From IMG/VR virus record IMGVR_UViG_3300025645_000381, positions 1-26,726 of that record: a stretch of 26,726 nucleotides of DNA, one strand, 5' to 3'. Source of the DNA: a virus. The position numbers and the translations under genes are program-made. Each line of letters begins with the position of its first letter. The first letter of the stretch is position 1. This document shows, piece after piece, positions 11,573 to 22,034 of this stretch. The notes beneath the pieces are model-generated. The model searched no databases and was not told the DNA's origin. It worked only from the letters and a program-made list of their open reading frames with translations.

Positions 11573-11606
11573 ATAAAAAAACCCCGCTTGAATTGGCGAG
11601 GTTTTA
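11573..11606 (-). terminator. Terminator before the lysis genes (candidate Q-controlled site)
   Basis: AAACCCCGC (11579-11587) pairs with GCGAGGTTT (11596-11604) with one mismatch and an 8-nt loop. On the minus strand the stem is followed by seven Ts. It lies between the Q-like gene and the first lysis gene, the position of lambda tR', where Q lets polymerase read through into late genes. That role is inference from gene order. Confidence 0.75.
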
Positions 11607-11734
11607 ACAACAATAGCAAAATTATACGTAATTTCAGTAGTGAGAAAAGGTTGTAAACAACCTGTTTTAATTTATTTTTATTTGTACTAAAAAACTAGTT
11701 AGATTTTGAAATTCAACGCGGTGCGCACTGCGCA
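11607..11734. other. Late-leader region between lysis genes and opposite-strand island
   Basis: No gene is seen here. On the minus strand there is a perfect -10 hexamer (TATAAT, 11621-11626), but the matching -35 is poor, as is common for phage late promoters, so this is a weak candidate late promoter. A perfect 7-bp hairpin, AGGTTGT/ACAACCT, lies at 11648-11663. The segment at 11719-11740 holds GC-rich TGCG repeats just before the plus-strand promoter. Confidence 0.35.
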
Positions 11735-11763
11735 TTGCGTTATATGCAAAATCGTGCTATAGT
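11735..11763 (+). promoter_or_regulatory. Promoter of the 89-residue plus-strand gene
   Basis: TTGCGT (11735-11740) and TATAGT (11758-11763) are separated by 17 bp and lie 45 bp before the ATG at 11808. The -35 is overlapped by GC-rich repeats (GTGCGCAC palindrome and repeated TGCG, 11719-11740), a plausible operator. Its own promoter, opposite to the phage operon, marks this as an independently expressed gene. Confidence 0.6.
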
Positions 11764-11807: not shown

Positions 11808-12077
11808 ATGGATATAATAATCGTCAAAGAATCTTTCGTAGGGTTTGAAACATTACCAGAAAATGCAAAGGTCTCAGCCAGTCATATCATAAGAGCAATA
11901 CAAGCAGCTCCTGATATGAACAAATTGAAATCAGTATTGCCTGACGATGTAGTAACAACCGATGGCGTAGAACATCACGCCCTTGTTAAAGATAATTATC
12001 AACACGTTGCAGCGTGTATAAAGATAACAATCGACAGCAAGAACAGGGCGGTAGTTGCTTTTCAACCTTACGATTAG
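11808..12077 (+). CDS. Unknown 89-residue protein; possible toxin-antitoxin partner
   Basis: The protein begins MDIIIVKESFVGFETLPENAK and ends in AVVAFQPYD. It has one helical region (about 20-50) and short strands near the end. The size and helix-then-strands arrangement resemble the RelE/HigB toxin fold, but I do not see conserved RelE residues, so this is only a suggestion. It has a ribosome-binding site (GGAG), a consensus-like promoter upstream and a 15-bp hairpin downstream. It precedes a HigA-like HTH gene by 149 bp on the same strand. Confidence 0.6.
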   Translation: MDIIIVKESFVGFETLPENAKVSASHIIRAIQAAPDMNKLKSVLPDDVVTTDGVEHHALVKDNYQHVAACIKITIDSKNRAVVAFQPYD

Positions 12078-12081
12078 ATTT

Positions 12082-12117
12082 GTAAAGAAGTAGGCTAATT
12101 CTAGCCTACTTCTTTAC
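12082..12117 (+). terminator. Strong hairpin after the 89-residue gene
   Basis: GTAAAGAAGTAGGCT (12082-12096) and AGCCTACTTCTTTAC (12103-12117) form a perfect 15-bp stem with a 6-nt loop, 4 bp after the stop codon. No clear T-run follows, so it may act as a weak or bidirectional terminator, or protect the mRNA 3' end. It separates the two plus-strand genes, unlike a usual toxin-antitoxin operon. Confidence 0.65.
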
Positions 12118-12166
12118 TCAAAGTAAAGTTAGTAGATATTAACGAAGCTGAAAACAAAGCAGTACC

Positions 12167-12203
12167 GTACGAAACAAAATGATTTTGTACGAGATTTTAT
12201 AAT
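12167..12203 (+). promoter_or_regulatory. Putative operator and -10 of the HigA-like gene
   Basis: A dyad ACAAAAT/ATTTTGT (12174-12180 and 12182-12188) lies inside two GTACGA boxes (12167 and 12187), followed by a perfect TATAAT at 12198-12203. A good -35 is missing at the expected place, which is covered by the dyad. The arrangement suggests autoregulation by the HTH protein encoded just downstream. Confidence 0.45.
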
Positions 12204-12226
12204 TAAATTTAAAAAAGGAATTAACC

Positions 12227-12523
12227 ATGGAAAATGAAAAAACAATAGGTATAGAGGCGATAAGCCATCTACTAGCCCCACCGAAAGGTGCCTATGAATA
12301 TGTGAAAAGCATATTAGAATCTAAAGGTGAAAACCCAACACAAGCGGCAAAGAAACTAGATGTGAGCGCATCTACCGTGAAAAGACTTTTAGATGGAGGT
12401 AGCTTAACAACAAATATGGCTGCTAAATTACATAACACTTACAAAATGGATATAGATACATTATTCAACATTGAAGCTCAGGCTCACGCCTATGAAGCAC
12501 GGCACATAGCAAAAACTGCTTAG
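12227..12523 (+). CDS. HigA/VapI-type XRE antitoxin-like HTH protein
   Basis: The protein has 98 residues. The HTH lies at about 36-60 (NPTQAAKKLDVSASTVKRLLDGGS), followed by TNMAAKLHNTYKMDIDTLFNIEAQAHAYEARH, the typical HigA C-terminal helix ending. HigA-family antitoxins neutralise a RelE-fold toxin and repress their own operon. It has an AAAGGAA ribosome-binding site and a dyad over its promoter. No classical HigB is adjacent; the unknown gene at 11808 is the only candidate partner, so an orphan regulator is equally possible. Confidence 0.75.
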   Translation: MENEKTIGIEAISHLLAPPKGAYEYVKSILESKGENPTQAAKKLDVSASTVKRLLDGGSLTTNMAAKLHNTYKMDIDTLFNIEAQAHAYEARHIAKTA

Positions 12524-13872: not shown

Positions 13873-15120
13873 CTAGGCCACGTTATCCATGTCTTTAGTG
13901 TCAAGGTTGAACTGGCTCGGGGTTGACTCAGGGTTGAGGATAAAGCACTTTTTATTTTGCTGAGACAACCAATTAGTATGCTCTATCAATGCTTGCTTTC
14001 GTTGCTTATATGCCTGACCGGTATAAGCACGAGTAGTTTTACCAAGCGTGTGATTCAACATACGTTCAGCAACTAATCCATCAACACCTTGTTCCTCCCA
14101 ACATAATCGAGCACACTTTCGTAAATCATGCGAATGCCACTCTCCTGCGCTAAATGCATGAATGGCTTTTCTAACTTTTTCATAATCGATAGCATTGTTA
14201 CCGGTTGGATTTGGAAACAACCATTTTCCGTTGTACTTACATTGCTTTTGATACTCTTTCCATTGAAGAAGCATATCCGTGATTCTTGGCGGTAAATGAA
14301 TAGTGATCGGTGTTTTAGTTTTGGTGTCTGGTTTAGGGATGTCCCAAGCAGGATCAAACGTTAAATTGAAATTACTCCATTTAGCCAGCAACGTTTCACC
14401 GATACGAGTACCAAGTGTTAGCATTAACATGCAGACCATTTTAATTAAATCTGGTTGCCCTTCCATCTCATCGAGTAGCCATGGGACCATTCTTGGTTTT
14501 AATAACGACTCTTTATCGTCTGCACTAAAATCACCAAAATCTGAAATTTTAAAGCGCTCTAATGGGTTGTTTGACAGCAGATCCAAACCTGACGCTTTTT
14601 TTGCTGCAGCTTTTAGTATGTGAAACTTTTTAACTACAGAGCTTTTTGCTAATACTTTCTGCAGTGGCCATATAAGAACTTTATCCAAAGTGTTTTTATC
14701 AACCTCACTAATGAGAAGATCACCTAATCGTGGGAATAAGTGCTTTTTGATGCTGCTTTTAATATCTTTTTTTCTCTGATCACTAAGGTTTGCATCTTCT
14801 TCAACTCGCTCGTTGTACCAGGTAAGTAAATCTCCCAATGTAATAAAGCAGTCACTTTTTACTTTTGCTTGGCCATTTCTTGCGATCACATCAAGAAGAA
14901 CAGCAATCGAGTTTCTCATTTCACGAGTTTTGGTTGATGGCCATTCAGCGACACGATGCCATTTATTACGATATAAAATTCGCCAAACACCTTGCGCCCG
15001 ATTTTTTTTGAAGCGCAATTGTAGTGCTGGATTTTGATTATCTCGTAAAACATCGACACCAGGTAAAGCACTGTGACTTGATATCGATTTGTCAGTAATA
15101 ACTAGACGAACTAAGCTCAT
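13873..15120 (-). CDS. int: Tyrosine recombinase (phage integrase)
   Basis: The protein has 415 residues. The catalytic set is complete: Arg239 (LGTRIGE), His331-x-x-Arg334 (HSHDLRK), His357 (MLNHTLG) and Tyr366 (RAYTG). The N-terminal arm-binding/DUF4102-like part (about 1-85) precedes a SAM-like core-binding domain (about 90-180). The start is the ATG at 15120 with AAGGA upstream; a TTG at 15123 is an alternative. It should integrate phage DNA at an attachment site by a tyrosine-DNA intermediate. Oddly, it lies inside the replication-to-late operon and not at a prophage end or beside the immunity region. Confidence 0.92.
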   Translation of the reverse strand: MSLVRLVITDKSISSHSALPGVDVLRDNQNPALQLRFKKNRAQGVWRILYRNKWHRVAEWPSTKTREMRNSIAVLLDVIARNGQAKVKSDCFITLGDLLTWYNERVEEDANLSDQRKKDIKSSIKKHLFPRLGDLLISEVDKNTLDKVLIWPLQKVLAKSSVVKKFHILKAAAKKASGLDLLSNNPLERFKISDFGDFSADDKESLLKPRMVPWLLDEMEGQPDLIKMVCMLMLTLGTRIGETLLAKWSNFNLTFDPAWDIPKPDTKTKTPITIHLPPRITDMLLQWKEYQKQCKYNGKWLFPNPTGNNAIDYEKVRKAIHAFSAGEWHSHDLRKCARLCWEEQGVDGLVAERMLNHTLGKTTRAYTGQAYKQRKQALIEHTNWLSQQNKKCFILNPESTPSQFNLDTKDMDNVA

Positions 15121-15132
15121 CAATACTGATCC

Positions 15133-15342: not shown

Positions 15343-15990
15343 TTATGCAGCCCCGTTTACTTGTTTTAGTTTTTGTTTCATTGCAAAAAATTGACTGGTC
15401 GCTTTGACCGGCACACACACTTTTTCAGGTAGCGCTAATGGAATTTCGGCTGATAAGTCCTCGCCATTCATCACTCGATTACAGGCAATCTCATAGTTGC
15501 GGCGGAACATAGGTAATAAAACTTTGTGAGATAGGTTTTTTAAGTTTGATAGGCCCGTTGCTTTAGCAGCTACGTAAATCGCTGGATGCTGTTTCTTTTG
15601 ACCATTAACCACCATTTGCAACGCACGCTCGACTGCTGGTAGCCCATAATCTTCAAGACTTGGCTTACACCATGCAATGAATTCACCTGTTGATGGGAGC
15701 CAAGGTTTCGCTCGCTTTCTTACTTTTTTCATGCCGATATCAACTTGATGTTGATTCACAACACCATTTTCAAACAACGCTTGCGCCCATTGTTTCTTAG
15801 CTGCTTGTTCGATATCAATGTCGGTAAAGGTTTGTTGCCAAGCTGTACAGACCCCTTTTAAATCCTTAAACAAATCATTCACAATGGTGATTGCTTGGTA
15901 CGGCAATTCAAACTCTTGAGGTGTTTCATGCTTCGCCTGAAAATTTAAATGACTAGCGATTTTAGAAATTGGTTTAGGTGGATTTCTCAT
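15343..15990 (-). CDS. P: Replication protein P-like (helicase loader)
   Basis: The protein has 215 residues (lambda P has 233). It contains a WLPSTGEFIAWC motif (about residues 95-110) typical of the lambda P family, and IYVAAKATG near 138. Lambda P binds host DnaB and delivers it to the O-bound origin. The gene starts in overlap with the O-like stop, the lambda O-P order, with GGTGAA upstream of the ATG. Confidence 0.85.
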   Translation of the reverse strand: MRNPPKPISKIASHLNFQAKHETPQEFELPYQAITIVNDLFKDLKGVCTAWQQTFTDIDIEQAAKKQWAQALFENGVVNQHQVDIGMKKVRKRAKPWLPSTGEFIAWCKPSLEDYGLPAVERALQMVVNGQKKQHPAIYVAAKATGLSNLKNLSHKVLLPMFRRNYEIACNRVMNGEDLSAEIPLALPEKVCVPVKATSQFFAMKQKLKQVNGAA

Positions 15991-16835
15991 GATTTCACCT
16001 TGAAGCCTTTAGCCCACGAAGTGTCATTAGGATCTAGCGTTTTTGATTTTTTCGTGGTTAACGAACTCTGGCTTTTAATTTCCAGCTCATCCCACTTAGC
16101 TCTGAGTTTATTAGGGCTTAGGATATTGGCTTGCCAAAAGCTGTCGTTATTGGCCCATTTGAAAAGCTCACATATTTCTCTATGTGATTTACCATCCCGC
16201 TCTCGAATTAATCGAATGTGATCTGCCCATGATTCGATATTAGGTTTTTTAAAGTTAGATTTAACACTTAAAATCTTCGATAAGAAATAATTTGCTGCAA
16301 CTAAATCTTCGTCTGAGAATTTATTCGCTGACAAAGGTTTATTATTGTTTTGTATAGTATCTTTCTTTTGTGTGCATCGGTTCTGACTTACATTTGAGTC
16401 GGTTCTGACTTTTTCGTAAGTCGGTTCTGACTTACTTTTAAGTCGATTCTGACTTAAGGGCTTAGTTTTTATTTCTTTGTTTTCCCACTCTGAAACAACA
16501 GGATTAATCCCTATTTTCTTACCTTGAGTGATTAAGATTTTTCTCTTTACTAGTGATGATTTTACTTTGGCTATATTAGTCACTGCAATATTTGTGAGTT
16601 CAGATAACTCTTCGTAGCAAATCCAATCGAAGGACTTTTGCCAACCGAAAGTTTTAAGCATAACTGTATGCACTATTCTGCTCTCTCTATCGCTTAATTG
16701 GGTACTACAAAGAGCCAAGCCTAGTTCTTTCGCTACTCGATAATAGCCGTTATCGGTGTCCGCTTTCACAACAGCTATCTCCTGCGGTTTTGGCTCCTTT
16801 TCAGGAAACTTGATTACCTTTGCTACATTTGTCAT
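15987..16835 (-). CDS. O: Replication initiator O-like
   Basis: The protein has 282 residues from the ATG at 16835, chosen over 16877 because GAGGT lies five to nine bases upstream. The N-terminal winged-helix domain (about 25-110: NGYYRVAKELGLAL..., DRESRIVHTVMLKTFGWQK, ELTNIAVTNIAKVKSSLVKRKIL) is the lambda O-type origin-binding part. A low-complexity linker (about 127-154) is encoded by the iterons. A C-terminal part (about 175-260) should bind the P-like protein. It initiates theta replication at the origin inside its own gene. Confidence 0.88.
   Translation of the reverse strand: MTNVAKVIKFPEKEPKPQEIAVVKADTDNGYYRVAKELGLALCSTQLSDRESRIVHTVMLKTFGWQKSFDWICYEELSELTNIAVTNIAKVKSSLVKRKILITQGKKIGINPVVSEWENKEIKTKPLSQNRLKSKSEPTYEKVRTDSNVSQNRCTQKKDTIQNNNKPLSANKFSDEDLVAANYFLSKILSVKSNFKKPNIESWADHIRLIRERDGKSHREICELFKWANNDSFWQANILSPNKLRAKWDELEIKSQSSLTTKKSKTLDPNDTSWAKGFKVKS
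16321..16371. other. AT-rich DNA-unwinding side of the replication origin
   Basis: This stretch lies directly downstream of the iterons in the O reading direction and is about three-quarters A+T. In lambda, the AT-rich unwinding region has the same place relative to O-binding iterons. The role is inferred from that parallel. Confidence 0.55.
16372..16457. repeat. Four iterons with exact 22-bp period: replication origin
   Basis: Copies start at 16372, 16394, 16416 and 16438, each with core GTTCTGACT or GATTCTGACTT. Copies 3 and 4 are perfect dyads: GTAAGTC-GGTTCT-GACTTAC and TTAAGTC-GATTCT-GACTTAA (7-bp arms, 6-bp spacer). Copies 1 and 2 keep the right arm and part of the left. The array lies within the O-like gene, as in lambda, and should be where the O-like protein binds. 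Since 22 is not a multiple of 3, the same DNA is read in all three frames (SQNR, KSEPT, VRTD), showing selection on DNA rather than protein. Confidence 0.85.
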
Positions 16836-16896: not shown

Positions 16897-17035
16897 ATGT
16901 CGGTAAGGTCTGGGGAGTTTCCTCCCTTTTCCTTACGCTTTATCCATTGAAGCTATAACTCACATGGACGATGAGCATATACCCCTTAGCAACTGGGTTA
17001 CCTTCCTTGACTAAACTTATTTAAAAATTGAAAAC

Positions 17036-17094
17036 ACCTCTTTGCTCGCTTAACATGAGAGTGCGAAAAACAAAATCAAACAAAACAAAGAGGT
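17036..17094 (+). promoter_or_regulatory. Stem that pairs the ribosome-binding site of the gene at 17100
   Basis: ACCTCTTTG (17036-17044) is a perfect 9-bp complement of CAAAGAGGT (17086-17094), which contains the AGAGG ribosome-binding site seven bases before the ATG. Pairing would hide the site. The 41-nt loop is A-rich and unstructured by eye. It suggests translation control of this gene. Confidence 0.6.
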
Positions 17095-17099
17095 AGAAA

Positions 17100-17537
17100 A
17101 TGAACAAGGACGAAAAACAATCGCAATTCGTAGTGCTTAGCAGCTTGCTATTGCGAATGAGTAGTGAATCATTCCCTTCACAATGTTTAATTAACGAGAC
17201 TGAAGTACTTAGAGAATCAAAGAAGTTTAATTTGTACAGTTTTTTTGAACCTTCAAATGTTAAATTGCTATCAGATACAATCAAATGGCTTTCTGACGAA
17301 GGGTACATCCGATCTAGGGTTGTTGAAAAATCTTGGTACATAACTCTTTCAGAAAAAGGCATGAATGCTATTGATTTTTCAATTGTTAAACCTGATATTT
17401 TATCAAAATACAACTTGAGCAAATCCGTAAACAGAATGATCGCCGGTGGTAAAGATGGCCATGGAGAGCAAAAAGGCAACGGATTGAAGTTAACTAAACC
17501 AGCCACTACATTCATCCCTTCTGATTGGCTTGATTAG
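17100..17537 (+). CDS. Plus-strand cassette gene A: winged-helix-like unknown protein
   Basis: The protein has 145 residues. The middle (about 55-90) reads LLSDTIKWLSDEGYIRSR...WYITLSEKGMNAI, a pattern seen in winged-helix proteins that end in a 'TxxG' wing. A Gly/Lys-rich tail follows (about 116-130). I do not recognise the family. It faces against the surrounding early operon and overlaps the 3' end of the minus gene at 17512 by 26 bp. Its leader resembles those of the genes at 18033 and 19490. The AGAGG site is inside a hairpin. Confidence 0.65.
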   Translation: MNKDEKQSQFVVLSSLLLRMSSESFPSQCLINETEVLRESKKFNLYSFFEPSNVKLLSDTIKWLSDEGYIRSRVVEKSWYITLSEKGMNAIDFSIVKPDILSKYNLSKSVNRMIAGGKDGHGEQKGNGLKLTKPATTFIPSDWLD

Positions 17538-17763
17538 TATTTAAACTGGCAAATAGGCCTTGAAATTGATCGCTATTTTCAACGGCCTTATTCAATTCAG
17601 TTAATCTGTTGCTTGATTCCAAATTATTTTGGGCTTCATCGTTCAATAGCTCTCTTAAATTTTTATCATGCGCCTTAATAAAGTCAATTGTTGCTTTGTT
17701 TAATGGCAGAGCCCGTAATTGACCATTCTCGATAAATACGGCTATTCCTTTTTCTATACTCAT
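17512..17763 (-). CDS. Small unknown early protein
   Basis: This 83-residue protein is helical and Asn/Glu/Leu-rich (for example KNLRELLNDEAQNNLESSNRLTELNKAVE, about 35-62), perhaps a coiled coil. No family is recognised. It has an AGGAAA site before the ATG at 17763 and starts 2 bp after the stop of the zinc-finger gene, so it is in the leftward operon. Its C-terminal codons overlap cassette gene A in the opposite direction. Confidence 0.6.
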   Translation of the reverse strand: MSIEKGIAVFIENGQLRALPLNKATIDFIKAHDKNLRELLNDEAQNNLESSNRLTELNKAVENSDQFQGLFASLNTNQANQKG

Positions 17764-17765
17764 TT

Positions 17766-17945
17766 TTATTTCCTATTCATCTGTTCAAAGTCATCACGAC
17801 AATCTGAATCACAAAATCCACCTGTTTCAATCACGTCATCGCAATAATGGCATTGACCTGTAAATGGCAGTTCAATATTTCGCTTTTGAAGGGCTTGGTT
17901 AATACGTAGCTCTTCAAGTTTCTGTGCGTTATCTACTAAATCCAT
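17766..17945 (-). CDS. Small zinc-finger protein (TraR/DksA-like or treble-clef)
   Basis: The 59 residues start at the ATG complementary to 17943-17945, after AGGTGA, and end in MNRK. Four cysteines (Cys32, Cys35, Cys45, Cys49) occur as CHYC and FCDSDC, a small zinc-binding finger preceded by a helix (about 5-25: AQKLEELRINQALQKRN). Such tiny proteins are common in phage early operons, where TraR/DksA-type members bind RNA polymerase. The second pair's spacing (C-x3-C) is not classical, so polymerase binding is not certain. The TAA stop is 2 bp before the next gene's ATG (17763). Confidence 0.65.
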   Translation of the reverse strand: MDLVDNAQKLEELRINQALQKRNIELPFTGQCHYCDDVIETGGFCDSDCRDDFEQMNRK

Positions 17946-17960
17946 GCTTCACCTAACATA

Positions 17961-18035
17961 TTGAATCCCTTACCTTCGGTTGCTAAACTGCTTTTGCGAA
18001 AAAACTTATTTAAAACAACCAAAGGAAAGGAAATG
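17961..18035 (+). repeat. Hairpin leader, copy B
   Basis: This 75-bp leader ends in the ATG of the gene at 18033 and aligns without gaps to copy C (19418-19492) at about 60 of 75 positions. A hairpin pairs CCTTCGGTTG (17973-17982) with CAACCAAAGG (18016-18025) with one mismatch. Differences do not favour third codon positions, so conservation is at the nucleic-acid level although the frame is open. It includes the AAGGA ribosome-binding region. Confidence 0.7.
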
Positions 18036-18473
18036 GCAAAAAATACGGATTTGTTTCTTGAATGCGCTGCAAAACTAATTAGTGCAACACGTGAAGGGTA
18101 CCCTGCATTAATATCTCCTGATTTAGAGTCACTAACAGGTAAACGGTATAAATACTTTGGAGAACCTTTTGATGGACTAGAGCATGATGATGAACATGAA
18201 TTAATACAGGACACTGCTGACAGATTACTAGAGTTAGGTTTTTTGCACGCTCCTAGAGCGGACGAGCGAGGAATAATCTGGAATTGCGGATATTGTGATA
18301 CTCCCTTCACCATGGGTAAACCAACATTTGAACGTCTTTTCGGGGATATTTTAGACGACTCAACTATTGGAGACCGCATAACTAAAGCCGTAAAAGATGG
18401 CGCTAAATCAGAACTACCTAAACTTATGAGTAAAGGGTTTGCTGAGATATGTCGAGTAGCCATAATGAGTTGA
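18033..18473 (+). CDS. Plus-strand cassette gene B: unknown protein
   Basis: The protein has 146 residues from the ATG at 18033. The start follows AAAGGAAAGG; a longer frame from TTG at 17961 would translate the leader and is rejected. The centre (about 55-70: ELIQDTADRLLELGFL) resembles DTIKWLSDEGYI in cassette gene A, so the two may share a winged-helix core (weak). One CGYC motif lies near residue 89. The C-terminal helices (KAVKDGAKSELPKLM) are basic. Function unknown. It lies opposite to the early operon between two minus-strand genes. Confidence 0.65.
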   Translation: MAKNTDLFLECAAKLISATREGYPALISPDLESLTGKRYKYFGEPFDGLEHDDEHELIQDTADRLLELGFLHAPRADERGIIWNCGYCDTPFTMGKPTFERLFGDILDDSTIGDRITKAVKDGAKSELPKLMSKGFAEICRVAIMS

Positions 18474-18479
18474 TTCATT

Positions 18480-18941
18480 TTAATTAAAACCTTTTAAAGA
18501 TGAATTCATTGTAGATATAAAGTAATGATCTGCTGCTCCAAAACTCATTACTTTATTTATATCCTTAGTTAACTCGTGAATTCTAGATGCCATTTCTGCA
18601 CCCGCTGAAATCATAAATTGATTAGGGTTACCGTTATACTTCTTATGCAGCCAACTTAGCCAAATCAGATCCATTAACGGCATTAGTTGTTCAATTGTGA
18701 TATCTAATTTGTTAACAACAGGCCATAACTCTTTTAATTGTTCTATTTGAATTGGATTGAGTCGATAGTGTTTTGATAGAGATAATTCTGCCTCTTGTCG
18801 TAGCCATTCATCAACTTCCCTTCGAGATAGGCCCGATATTTCGAAGCTAATGGATTTACCATCTAACTGTTCAGCCTTTAGTATTAACTGATTGGCTTCA
18901 ATCCTTAGTTGTTCTGCTTTTGTTTTTGCAATATCACTCAT
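18480..18941 (-). CDS. Unknown early protein
   Basis: This is a 153-residue, helical and Glu/Lys/Leu-rich protein. It begins with a charged helix (MSDIAKTKAEQLRIEANQLILKAEQL), followed by GLSRREVDEWLRQEAELSLSKHYRL and a hydrophobic central part (VNKLDITIEQLMPLMDLIWLSWLH, about 78-102). No family is recognised. Start at 18941 with GAGGAG upstream; its ATG overlaps the TAA of the previous gene. It belongs to the leftward early operon. Confidence 0.65.
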   Translation of the reverse strand: MSDIAKTKAEQLRIEANQLILKAEQLDGKSISFEISGLSRREVDEWLRQEAELSLSKHYRLNPIQIEQLKELWPVVNKLDITIEQLMPLMDLIWLSWLHKKYNGNPNQFMISAGAEMASRIHELTKDINKVMSFGAADHYFISTMNSSLKGFN

Positions 18942-19399
18942 TATGTAGCTCCTCTTTCGATGGACTCGATAACAGGGTTATCGAACTTGAATGTAATGGA
19001 TGGCTGCACGCTAGAGATTAATTGCTCTAAATTATCTTGCATCTTTCCAATTTCGTAAAAAAGGGCTGTTTCAGTAAGATTATTTCTACCTAATGCAGTT
19101 CCAGCACTAACCAACAAAACAAGGGATATATTCAGTTTCTTTAAAAGAAAAACAACATCACGTGAAGGTAATGAGAACTCCTCTTTGTGCTGATTCAAAG
19201 GTCGATTTTTAGTTACAAGATCTCTCCAACTGGCAATGCCACGATGAAATGCCGTCGATTCCGTAAATAGTTCAAGTGCTTCATACATGCCTTTAGCTCT
19301 TAAACATGACTCTCTAGAGCCAATTATTAAATTGGCTTTTATTAAATCAATTAGTTCATTGCACTTAACTGTATCGATTGCTTGATTACTATCACTCAT
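18941..19399 (-). CDS. Unknown early protein
   Basis: This is a 152-residue, helical protein with no recognised family. The middle reads RDVVFLLKKLNISLVLLVSAGTALGRNNLTETALFYEIGKM. The ATG at 19399 follows GTG at 19402; I choose the ATG. The first codons (MSDS) and preceding DNA are duplicated at 19854-19878 on the other side of cassette C, where the cro-like gene ends, suggesting that this gene once followed the cro-like gene directly. The ribosome-binding site is weak. Confidence 0.65.
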   Translation of the reverse strand: MSDSNQAIDTVKCNELIDLIKANLIIGSRESCLRAKGMYEALELFTESTAFHRGIASWRDLVTKNRPLNQHKEEFSLPSRDVVFLLKKLNISLVLLVSAGTALGRNNLTETALFYEIGKMQDNLEQLISSVQPSITFKFDNPVIESIERGAT

Positions 19400-19404
19400 C
19401 ACGC
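19389..19404. repeat. 16-bp direct repeat, left copy
   Basis: CTATCACTCATCACGC here is identical to 19863-19878, 474 bp away. It covers the start codon of the minus gene at 19399. The two copies bracket plus-strand cassette C. Both are also followed, in the minus direction, by TCAAGC after a short indel, so the duplication reaches about 25 bp. Confidence 0.8.
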
Positions 19405-19417
19405 CGCATCGCTTCCG

Positions 19418-19492
19418 TTGAATCCTAAACCTTTGGTTGCTAAAATGTTTTTGTCTGAAAACAAATTTAAAACAACCAAAGAAATAGAAATG
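19418..19492 (+). repeat. Hairpin leader, copy C
   Basis: This 75-bp leader is the counterpart of copy B, from TTGAATCC to the ATG of the gene at 19490. The stem is a perfect 9 bp: CTTTGGTTG (19431-19439) with CAACCAAAG (19473-19481), with a 33-nt loop. TTTAAAACAACCAAAG is identical in both copies. It lies just upstream of the start codon, so pairing would affect ribosome access. Confidence 0.72.
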
Positions 19493-19846
19493 GGTAAAGT
19501 TATAAACTTTCCAACCAGCAAAGACAGTCTGTGGCTTGAGCTTAAAAAAAGAATTGACGCGGAATTCGAGAAAACATGTTTAGAAGACAAATACAGGAAA
19601 GAATTCATCAGCAGATTCAAACCTACTCTTGAGTTAATGTATTTCACTTATGAGCTCCCTATTACCTTTGAATTCAACGAAGGCGACATTACTGAAAGCG
19701 GGGTCGAGACTTTGAACAACTCGATTGAATCCTACTTCAGCTCTTTTGAGACAGTCTTCAATAAACACATCACTAAGATCGCCTGTGATAGATACGTTTG
19801 GGAAATAGGACACTACTTTAGGGAGATTGGATTTACTCCTAGCTAG
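19490..19846 (+). CDS. Plus-strand cassette gene C: unknown protein
   Basis: This is a 118-residue acidic protein beginning MGKVINFPTSKDSLW. It has helical segments (LKKRIDAEFEKTCLEDKYRKEFISRF, about 16-41) and aromatic-rich parts (MYFTYELPITFEF; YVWEIGHYFREIGF at the end). No family is recognised. The ATG at 19490 is set by the hairpin leader. A minus-strand ORF (19634-19876) overlaps it and is judged a shadow. The gene is flanked by 16-bp direct repeats, suggesting insertion as a unit. Confidence 0.65.
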   Translation: MGKVINFPTSKDSLWLELKKRIDAEFEKTCLEDKYRKEFISRFKPTLELMYFTYELPITFEFNEGDITESGVETLNNSIESYFSSFETVFNKHITKIACDRYVWEIGHYFREIGFTPS

Positions 19847-19862
19847 CTTGACTATTTTCTTG

Positions 19863-19878
19863 CTATCACTCATCACGC
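19863..19878. repeat. 16-bp direct repeat, right copy
   Basis: This copy is identical to 19389-19404 and overlaps the stop codon of the cro-like gene (19873-19875). It includes an orphan ATG start (MSDSKK... in the minus direction) resembling the start of the gene at 19399. It is the other edge of cassette C. Confidence 0.8.
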
Positions 19879-20160: not shown

Positions 20161-20191
20161 GTACATTAACTATACAATAAGTACACCAACT
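20161..20191. promoter_or_regulatory. Operator-like repeats in the immunity region
   Basis: GTACATTAACT (20161-20171) and GTACACCAACT (20181-20191) are 20 bp apart, two helical turns, over the leftward promoter. GTACACCAA occurs again at 22066-22074 beside the rightward early promoter. A third GTACAT lies at 20131. Shared sites in both early control regions are what a phage repressor would need. Binding is not shown. Confidence 0.5.
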
Positions 20192-20196
20192 GTCAA
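20169..20196 (-). promoter_or_regulatory. Leftward early promoter (PR-like)
   Basis: On the minus strand, TTGACA (complement of 20191-20196) and TATAGT (complement of 20169-20174) are 16 bp apart. The -35 is a perfect match to consensus. The motif GTACACCAA (20181-20189) fills the spacer, so a repressor bound there would block it. It drives the Cro-like gene and the replication operon. Confidence 0.8.
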
Positions 20197-20281: not shown

Positions 20282-20749
20282 ATGACAATTATTTTATTGG
20301 AAGAAATTTTGAATAAACCTGTGTGGGCTATAAATGCTAAAAAAAGAATGAAGCATTTAAACATAACCCAAAAAGATATTGCAGAACACGTAAAGGTAAC
20401 TCTAGGTGCTGTAGGGCATTGGTTTAGTGGAAGAAGATCACCAACTTTATATAACTTGGATGTTTTGGCAAGTTTCCTAAAAACAACATCTGCCGAATTG
20501 CTGCATGAATCTAAAGATGTAAATGAATTAAAGGGAGGATCTAAGAACTTGAAAGACGCCCTTGTTCTTCTATGTAGGTTTTCTTCTATAACTACAGACG
20601 ATTCTAAAGTGTTCTTTCAGGTTATTGATAATATTGGTGTCGAGAATATAATTAAAACTGTTAATGTTTTAAATGAGAGTGAAAAAACTAACAGAGATCC
20701 TACCGAAGTGATTGTGGATATAATGGATTACGTACAACAAACAGGGTGA
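20282..20749 (+). CDS. CI-like phage repressor (XRE HTH, no peptidase domain)
   Basis: The protein has 155 residues. The HTH is at about 16-70: AKKRMKHLNITQKDIAEHVKVTLGAVGHWFSGRRSP, with the recognition helix near 37-48. The C-terminal half (about 85-155) is unknown and helical, without the Ser/Lys protease motifs of LexA/CI S24 repressors. So self-cleavage by RecA is not expected; induction must use another route, such as an antirepressor. It has AAGGAG at the start and a consensus promoter. It is the immunity repressor by position, opposite the Cro-like gene. Confidence 0.82.
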   Translation: MTIILLEEILNKPVWAINAKKRMKHLNITQKDIAEHVKVTLGAVGHWFSGRRSPTLYNLDVLASFLKTTSAELLHESKDVNELKGGSKNLKDALVLLCRFSSITTDDSKVFFQVIDNIGVENIIKTVNVLNESEKTNRDPTEVIVDIMDYVQQTG

Positions 20750-21619: not shown

Positions 21620-21946
21620 CTAATATTTTTTAGGTGGCTCAATGCCTCCACCGTTACTCTCTACATTATTAGGTGGCTCAATACCTCCACCGTTACTCTC
21701 TACATTATTAGGTGGCTCAATACCTCCACCGTTACTCTCTGTCCGCAATATATTTTCTGCTTCTTTACTGATAGTAACGCTAAAGTCTTGGTCATTATCC
21801 ACATTAAGTGGCACAGATTCAACATTATTAACTATTTTACTATCGGACAAATCCGACTTTTTTACAGAGGTTTCCGACAACTTATTGTTTGAACTAGGCA
21901 TATCAGATCTTAATGCCGCTTCAGTACTTCCAGAATCAATTTTCAT
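21620..21946 (-). CDS. Small protein with C-terminal GGGIEPP repeats
   Basis: The protein has 108 residues from the ATG at 21946, chosen because AAGGA lies eight bases upstream; longer starts (21967, 21991) lack a site. The first 65 residues are polar and probably disordered (Ser, Asp, Lys). The end is a repeat: three copies of VESNGGGIEPP with NN spacers, closing in KKY. No signal peptide. No family is recognised. It is the first gene of a three-gene cassette with two membrane proteins and may expose the repeat for binding or processing. Confidence 0.6.
   Translation of the reverse strand: MKIDSGSTEAALRSDMPSSNNKLSETSVKKSDLSDSKIVNNVESVPLNVDNDQDFSVTISKEAENILRTESNGGGIEPPNNVESNGGGIEPPNNVESNGGGIEPPKKY
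21631..21739. repeat. 39-bp tandem repeat, about 2.8 copies
   Basis: Units begin at 21631, 21670 and 21709. The first two are full 39-bp units; the third is 31 bp before it diverges. They differ at a single site (GCC/ACC complement, Gly codon GGC or GGT, synonymous). The repeat is in frame with the gene at 21620 and encodes VESNGGGIEPPNN. Near-identity suggests recent expansion or continuous homogenisation. Confidence 0.9.
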
Positions 21947-22034
21947 AACGCAATCCTTATTCAACATTTGAATATCGAATATATCAAACAATAAAAATAT
22001 TATCGAGAAAACACAATTAATTATACATTAAGTA

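Follow-up and report, generated by a model that had tools for sequence, protein, structure and literature searches.

Three genes set against the early operon of a marine lambda-like phage share a leader resembling the IS10 RNA-IN/RNA-OUT control region

The three opposing genes and their shared leader

The subject of this analysis is a group of three genes, here designated A, B and C, and the 75-nt leader that precedes each of them in the virus record IMGVR_UViG_3300025645_000381. The 26,726 nt of this record constitute the window, to whose whole length all position numbers refer. The window is a lambda-like temperate phage of marine origin, with a match to O-type replication proteins (Pfam, E = 1e-27) and a repressor-like gene at 20282. 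As the first-pass annotation had stated, all three genes are located on the plus strand (A at 17100-17537, B at 18033-18473 and C at 19490-19846), within an early operon that runs leftward on the minus strand and begins at 20166.

Gene A encodes a winged-helix-like protein of 145 amino acids (aa) and gene B a protein of 146 aa. The faint likeness that had been noticed between the two proved to be real, as both matched phrog_2266 in profile searches (E = 1.2e-4 for A and 5e-5 for B); the matches place the two, as distant relatives, in one family of accessory genes. Gene C (118 aa) did not match phrog_2266, is unrelated to A and B by the same searches and is without known relatives. The codon-usage score was +0.13 per codon for A and B, with the remaining frames near or below zero, and +0.045 per codon for C, which is weak support for coding. 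No transposase match was obtained for A, B or C in the profile searches. Relatives of proteins B and C were absent from the viral contigs searched, those of A and B from the named phages, those of C from plasmids and those of A from the genome contigs searched. The predicted structures of B and C were too poor for use (pLDDT 49 and 47). In P2-type phages the relatives of A and B adjoin a Fic-like gene and a retron-type reverse transcriptase, and a hotspot of anti-phage genes is located next to cos in phages of this type (PMC9122126); an accessory or defence role is therefore plausible. The similarity to these relatives is remote, however, and the window leader was not found upstream of the phrog_2266 relatives in 395 genomes.

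The leaders of A (17028-17102), B (17961-18035) and C (19418-19492) can be aligned over 75 nt, up to and including the ATG, with no gap and with identical spacing. Those of B and C, for which a gapless identity of about 80% had been claimed, form a single ungapped repeat of 81 nt (79%). Over the 72 nt before the ATG, again ungapped, 57 of 72 positions are identical between B and C, 38 between A and B (reached by 0 of 20,000 shuffles) and 34 between A and C (p = 0.006); the upstream regions of other window genes attain at most 30 of 72. All of these comparisons rest on three sequences from one phage. The earlier description of leader A as a diverged relative stands in substance, but with another register: the ATG-anchored alignment sets the homologous block at 17028, and a register starting from TTGACTAAAC at 17007 was rejected.

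The conserved block extends from a -35-like TTGAA[A/T], located 72 nt before each ATG, to just past the ATG. In leader A, TTGAAA (17028-17033) is followed by a 17-nt spacer, TAACAT (17051-17056), a predicted transcript start at about 17063 (GCGAAAAAC) and the ATG at 17100. Leader B comprises TTGAAT (17961-17966), a 17-nt spacer, an extended -10-like TGcTAAACT (hexamer at 17984-17989), a predicted start at about 17996 (GCGAAAAAAC) and the ATG at 18033, and leader C comprises TTGAAT (19418-19423), a 17-nt spacer, an extended -10-like TGcTAAAAT (hexamer at 19441-19446), a predicted start at about 19453 and the ATG at 19490. In B and C the TG is placed one base upstream of the -10-like hexamer. 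The predicted start is near leader position 36, about 37 nt before the ATG, and the predicted transcripts of A and B begin with GCGAAAAA. All promoter calls are consensus matches only. Taken together, the leader is likely a module of a promoter and a short, A-rich 5′-untranslated region (5′-UTR).

Inverted repeat and minus-strand hairpins

Each leader contains an inverted repeat. Its 5′ arm falls within the spacer between the two promoter hexamers, and its 3′ arm overlaps or adjoins the Shine-Dalgarno region. The stem that had been proposed right before the start codon is a perfect 9-mer on the plus strand in A (17036-17044 and 17086-17094, ACCTCTTTG/CAAAGAGGT; shuffle p = 0.0055) and in C (19431-19439 and 19473-19481, CTTTGGTTG/CAACCAAAG; shuffle p = 0.0155), but not in B (17968-17982 and 18016-18030). 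With the predicted starts, a transcript from the own promoter lacks the 5′ arm and a read-through transcript holds both arms; masking of the ribosome site would therefore be confined to read-through RNA. The long transcript and the one starting at the predicted promoter differed in the computed energy needed to open the ribosome site by 8.4 kcal/mol for C, 5.9 for A and 3.7 for B, which are the three largest values of 41 genes (promoters predicted).

The minus-strand RNA of each leader folds into one long hairpin, which is more stable than every shuffle: -20.9 kcal/mol for A (z = -4.6), -26.2 for B (z = -6.4) and -21.5 for C (z = -5.4). In a ranking of every 75-nt stretch in the window, the hairpins of A, B and C fall within the best 2.3%, 0.4% and 1.8%, respectively. 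The stems contain 11 pairs that are not Watson-Crick, each of them G-U on the minus strand and none on the plus strand, a bias that is partly due to the A-rich 3′ arm; most IS10-type loci lean in a like manner toward the RNA-OUT strand.

The Rfam model RF00240 for RNA-OUT, the antisense RNA of IS10, matches all three leaders end to end (model positions 1-70), with 16.8 bits at 17029-17098, 22.8 bits at 17961-18034 and 16.0 bits at 19418-19491, and for leader A it is the only match among 4227 Rfam families. At all three leaders a single hairpin of about 70 nt is antisense to the mRNA start and the ribosome site. The net energy of pairing between an antisense hairpin and its own mRNA was -38 to -45 kcal/mol, and that of non-cognate pairs -1 to -17 kcal/mol. 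As each hairpin pairs best with its own mRNA, there would be little cross-talk among three such switches. Among the RNA-OUT matches in 296 genomes of the order of Vibrio, those whose gene could be read are found upstream of IS10-type transposases, and a covariance model built from leaders A, B and C returned IS10 RNA-OUT loci as its top foreign matches (best E = 0.035, 266 kb).

The phage leaders share with IS10/Tn10 the inverted repeat around the promoter -10 and the mRNA start, the A-rich mRNA start GC[GC]AAAAA (in A and B) and an antisense hairpin of about 70 nt on the opposite strand, where it is stabilised by G-U pairs in most loci. The GCGAAAAA start also occurs in one IS10 leader (L043), and the other IS10-type leaders have GCCAAAAA. 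Unlike IS10/Tn10, the phage leaders occur as three diverged copies in one operon and drive genes other than the DDE transposase that an IS10-type element controls; their 5′-UTR exceeds that of IS10 by about 10 nt and in A and B includes a Shine-Dalgarno site, they score below the model cut-off, and they have no evident antisense promoter. As to covarying stem pairs, which the first-pass annotation had suggested looking for, two-sided changes occur in 5 of the 17 stem pairs (a number reached by 7 of 500 shuffles); this is no more than suggestive, as there are three leaders in one phage and no relatives of the region were found outside it. Overall, the likeness to RNA-OUT supports an IS10-like design without proving common descent.

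A proposed lysogeny switch and alternative explanations

From the observed leader homology, register, inverted repeat, strand asymmetry and RNA-OUT likeness we infer promoter activity, antisense action and lysogeny-only expression. A, B and C would be moron-type accessory genes that are placed head-on in the early operon and driven by promoters of their own, and the leader would work like the IS10/Tn10 control region, built on the inverted repeat. An mRNA from the own promoter would start between the arms and leave the ribosome site open, and plus-strand read-through RNA would carry both arms and bury it. The minus-strand hairpin would be RNA-OUT-like, with its loop and 5′ half complementary to the mRNA start and the ribosome site. 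The early leftward promoter is predicted at 20169-20196 (TTGACA-16-TATAGT, 11 of 12 consensus bases, minus strand), and its transcript would read through cassettes A, B and C in antisense. Because no dedicated antisense promoter is evident, the antisense RNA must, on this proposal, come from the early transcript, which would be its simplest source; this transcript would be missing from a lysogen and produced at induction. As long as the early promoter is kept silent in the lysogen the three genes would stay on, and upon induction crossing transcription and antisense hairpins would shut them off. IS10 antisense control grows with copy number (PMC5006887), and such an effect would push the same way during phage replication.

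The data thus suggest, without yet proving it, an RNA switch that leaves A, B and C expressed while the phage is dormant and silences them while it grows lytically. That they are self-promoted lysogeny genes of a noncontiguous early operon, with an IS10-like leader and silenced by early antisense transcription, is our preferred reading, to which we give a little less than an even chance. The more specific proposal, that an IS10-type RNA-IN/RNA-OUT switch taken or diverged from transposons precedes three non-transposase genes in largely orthogonal versions and that the silencing hairpins come from the early transcript of the lytic phase, is tentative and on balance rather unlikely.

Several results weigh against this reading. 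The RNA-OUT scores of 16-23 bits are far below the 41-bit cut-off, at B and C unrelated hairpin families score equally or better, and the window leaders do not stand out in a search with a profile of IS10 leaders that uses sequence alone (3.3 bits at B, E = 1.9); for these reasons common descent is unproven. A scan of the 395 genomes with the A-B-C model yielded 6 matches, not above chance, and there are no independent leader copies in which covariation could be tested. No dedicated antisense promoter stands out: the best candidate sites for a pOUT, which for RNA-OUT is located just inside the coding region, score 6-8, at background, and a good -10 (TATAAC) is present only in C. Promoter-like sites are no commoner in the window than in shuffles. 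Stem B is broken on the plus strand by two 1x1 mismatches, leaving a longest perfect run of 5 bp. When only the upstream DNA was shuffled, the opening-energy gap was reached in 1 of 300 cases for C (p = 0.003), 41 of 300 for A (0.14) and 77 of 300 for B (0.26); the fold-back of A and B is unexceptional by this measure, since upstream DNA rich in T readily pairs with a leader rich in A.

One of the six genome matches is immediately upstream of the start codon in a DDE transposase gene. This locus (L065:17-1507, PF01609), found by the phage-leader model, has a leader with the RNA-IN/RNA-OUT layout.

The strongest alternative, which we consider unlikely but well short of negligible, is that a promoter and 5′-UTR were duplicated and that the inverted repeat serves plus-strand control only, leaving read-through RNA untranslated and the minus-strand hairpin a by-product. 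The position of the arms in all three leaders and the top rank of A, B and C among the 41 genes fit this explanation, and a like arrangement has been described for gene e of T4 and for homing endonuclease genes of phages: their promoter is inside the hairpin region, so that the ribosome site is hidden only in transcripts begun further upstream (PMC3014915, PMC2988022). It accounts less well for the minus-strand structure, which is consistently stronger and which all wobble pairs favour, for the mismatched stem of B and for the plus-strand values of A and B, which upstream shuffles often reach. The claim of the first-pass annotation for a cassette family with a common leader, possibly controlling translation, is retained in part: translation control is probable, but the leader is apparently a promoter with a 5′-UTR and the stronger structure is on the minus strand. 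Alternatively, the element might have its function in the early mRNA transcribed leftward, where it would serve as a cleavage site for RNase III or as a stabilising 5′ element ahead of the next early gene, with the plus-strand genes as bystanders. The hairpins are strongest on the minus strand and end 16-19 nt before minus-strand genes at B and C, but the homology block is anchored on, and ends at, the plus-strand ATG and promoter-like start, and at A the next minus-strand start (16835) is about 190 nt away, so that this explanation is improbable.

Slightly less probable still is a DNA operator for a repressor of the three plus-strand promoters. One arm does overlap the promoter spacer, a usual operator location; the arms of A, however, differ in sequence and spacing (loop of 41 nt versus 33 nt) and yet stay complementary, for which reason base pairing fits better than a shared protein site. 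The suggestion that the leader is a recombination site for gene swapping draws on the different genes behind similar leaders and on the 16-bp repeats that flank cassette C. These repeats lie outside the leader and only cassette C has them, the genes of A and B are distantly related and belong to a single family, and neither cassette nor leader was found elsewhere in the viral contigs, phages and genome contigs searched; we regard it as very unlikely.

The read-through arrangement is also known from the protection of IS10 against outside promoters, and RNA-IN/RNA-OUT is in wide use as an engineered regulator. The T4-type genes (e, I-TevI, segB and Aeh1 mobE) resemble the phage leaders in that the promoter is inside the hairpin region, but they have late promoters and early read-through in the same direction, whereas here sigma-70-like promoters oppose the early operon. 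Gene order and promoter predictions also place A, B and C, with their own promoters inside an operon of opposite direction, in a noncontiguous arrangement like tha/ith of Staphylococcus aureus phage 80alpha, in which a head-on gene makes lysogenic and lytic expression mutually exclusive (PMC11087260). Induction of 80alpha raises the expression of the antisense gene, whose protein inhibits; in our proposal the polarity would be reversed and an RNA hairpin would act. The SAS/ESAS of cluster K mycobacteriophages are likewise conserved near gene starts, with inverted repeats, before unrelated genes (PMC3203893), but consist of 17-bp repeats with mostly a 4-13 bp spacer and a 13-bp SAS, and here the whole promoter-UTR is conserved. 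If our reading is true, the RNA-IN/RNA-OUT layout would be a portable module also serving phage accessory genes, in contrast to the present sample, in which all readable RNA-OUT-type loci precede transposase genes, and it would provide a concrete route by which a prophage keeps lysogeny genes on and then silences them at induction by its own early mRNA.

Surroundings of the cassettes and further observations

Further leader copies, for which the first-pass annotation had suggested a search in phages and bacterial genomes, were not found outside this phage by DNA pattern scans of viral contigs, blastn against phages or the covariance scan of 395 genomes. This absence says little, because the flanking early genes also lack relatives there. 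The terminase is 70-75% identical to prophage terminases of Vibrio, Marinomonas and Photobacterium, and neither these terminase relatives nor the O-relatives in viral contigs carry obvious equivalent cassettes. As the flanking early genes had no convincing relatives in the searches, there are no empty sites to compare.

Cassette C is bracketed by a 16-bp direct repeat, CTATCACTCATCACGC, with copies at 19389-19404, over the start of the minus-strand gene 18941-19402, and at 19863-19878, to the right of the cassette; an equally long repeat occurred in 3 of 300 random sequences. The left copy covers the start of the downstream early gene, and the cassette looks as if inserted at a stop/start overlap. 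Repeats of this kind do not flank cassettes A and B, and no ends derived from insertion sequences were seen at the cassettes on inspection by eye only.

In the early operon, the gene for an O-like replication protein (15987-16835, minus strand, by family matches) contains repeated palindromes AAGTCGrTTCTGACTT at 16366-16460, possibly origin iterons. Downstream of it an integrase-like gene (13873-15123, minus strand) is part of the leftward operon, an unusual location. An open reading frame at 21620-21991 (minus strand) holds tandem SNGGGIEPPNNVE repeats. Two small plus-strand genes at 11808-12523 (89 and 98 aa, the second helix-turn-helix-like) oppose the surrounding genes and resemble, by eye only, a toxin-antitoxin pair. 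Finally, a full-length, sub-threshold match to the small RNA GcvB was obtained at 11573-11760 on the minus strand (36.1 bits versus a cut-off of 42; window E = 1.1e-4); it has a terminator-like 3′ end, adjoins the lysis genes and is possibly a phage-borne GcvB-like RNA.

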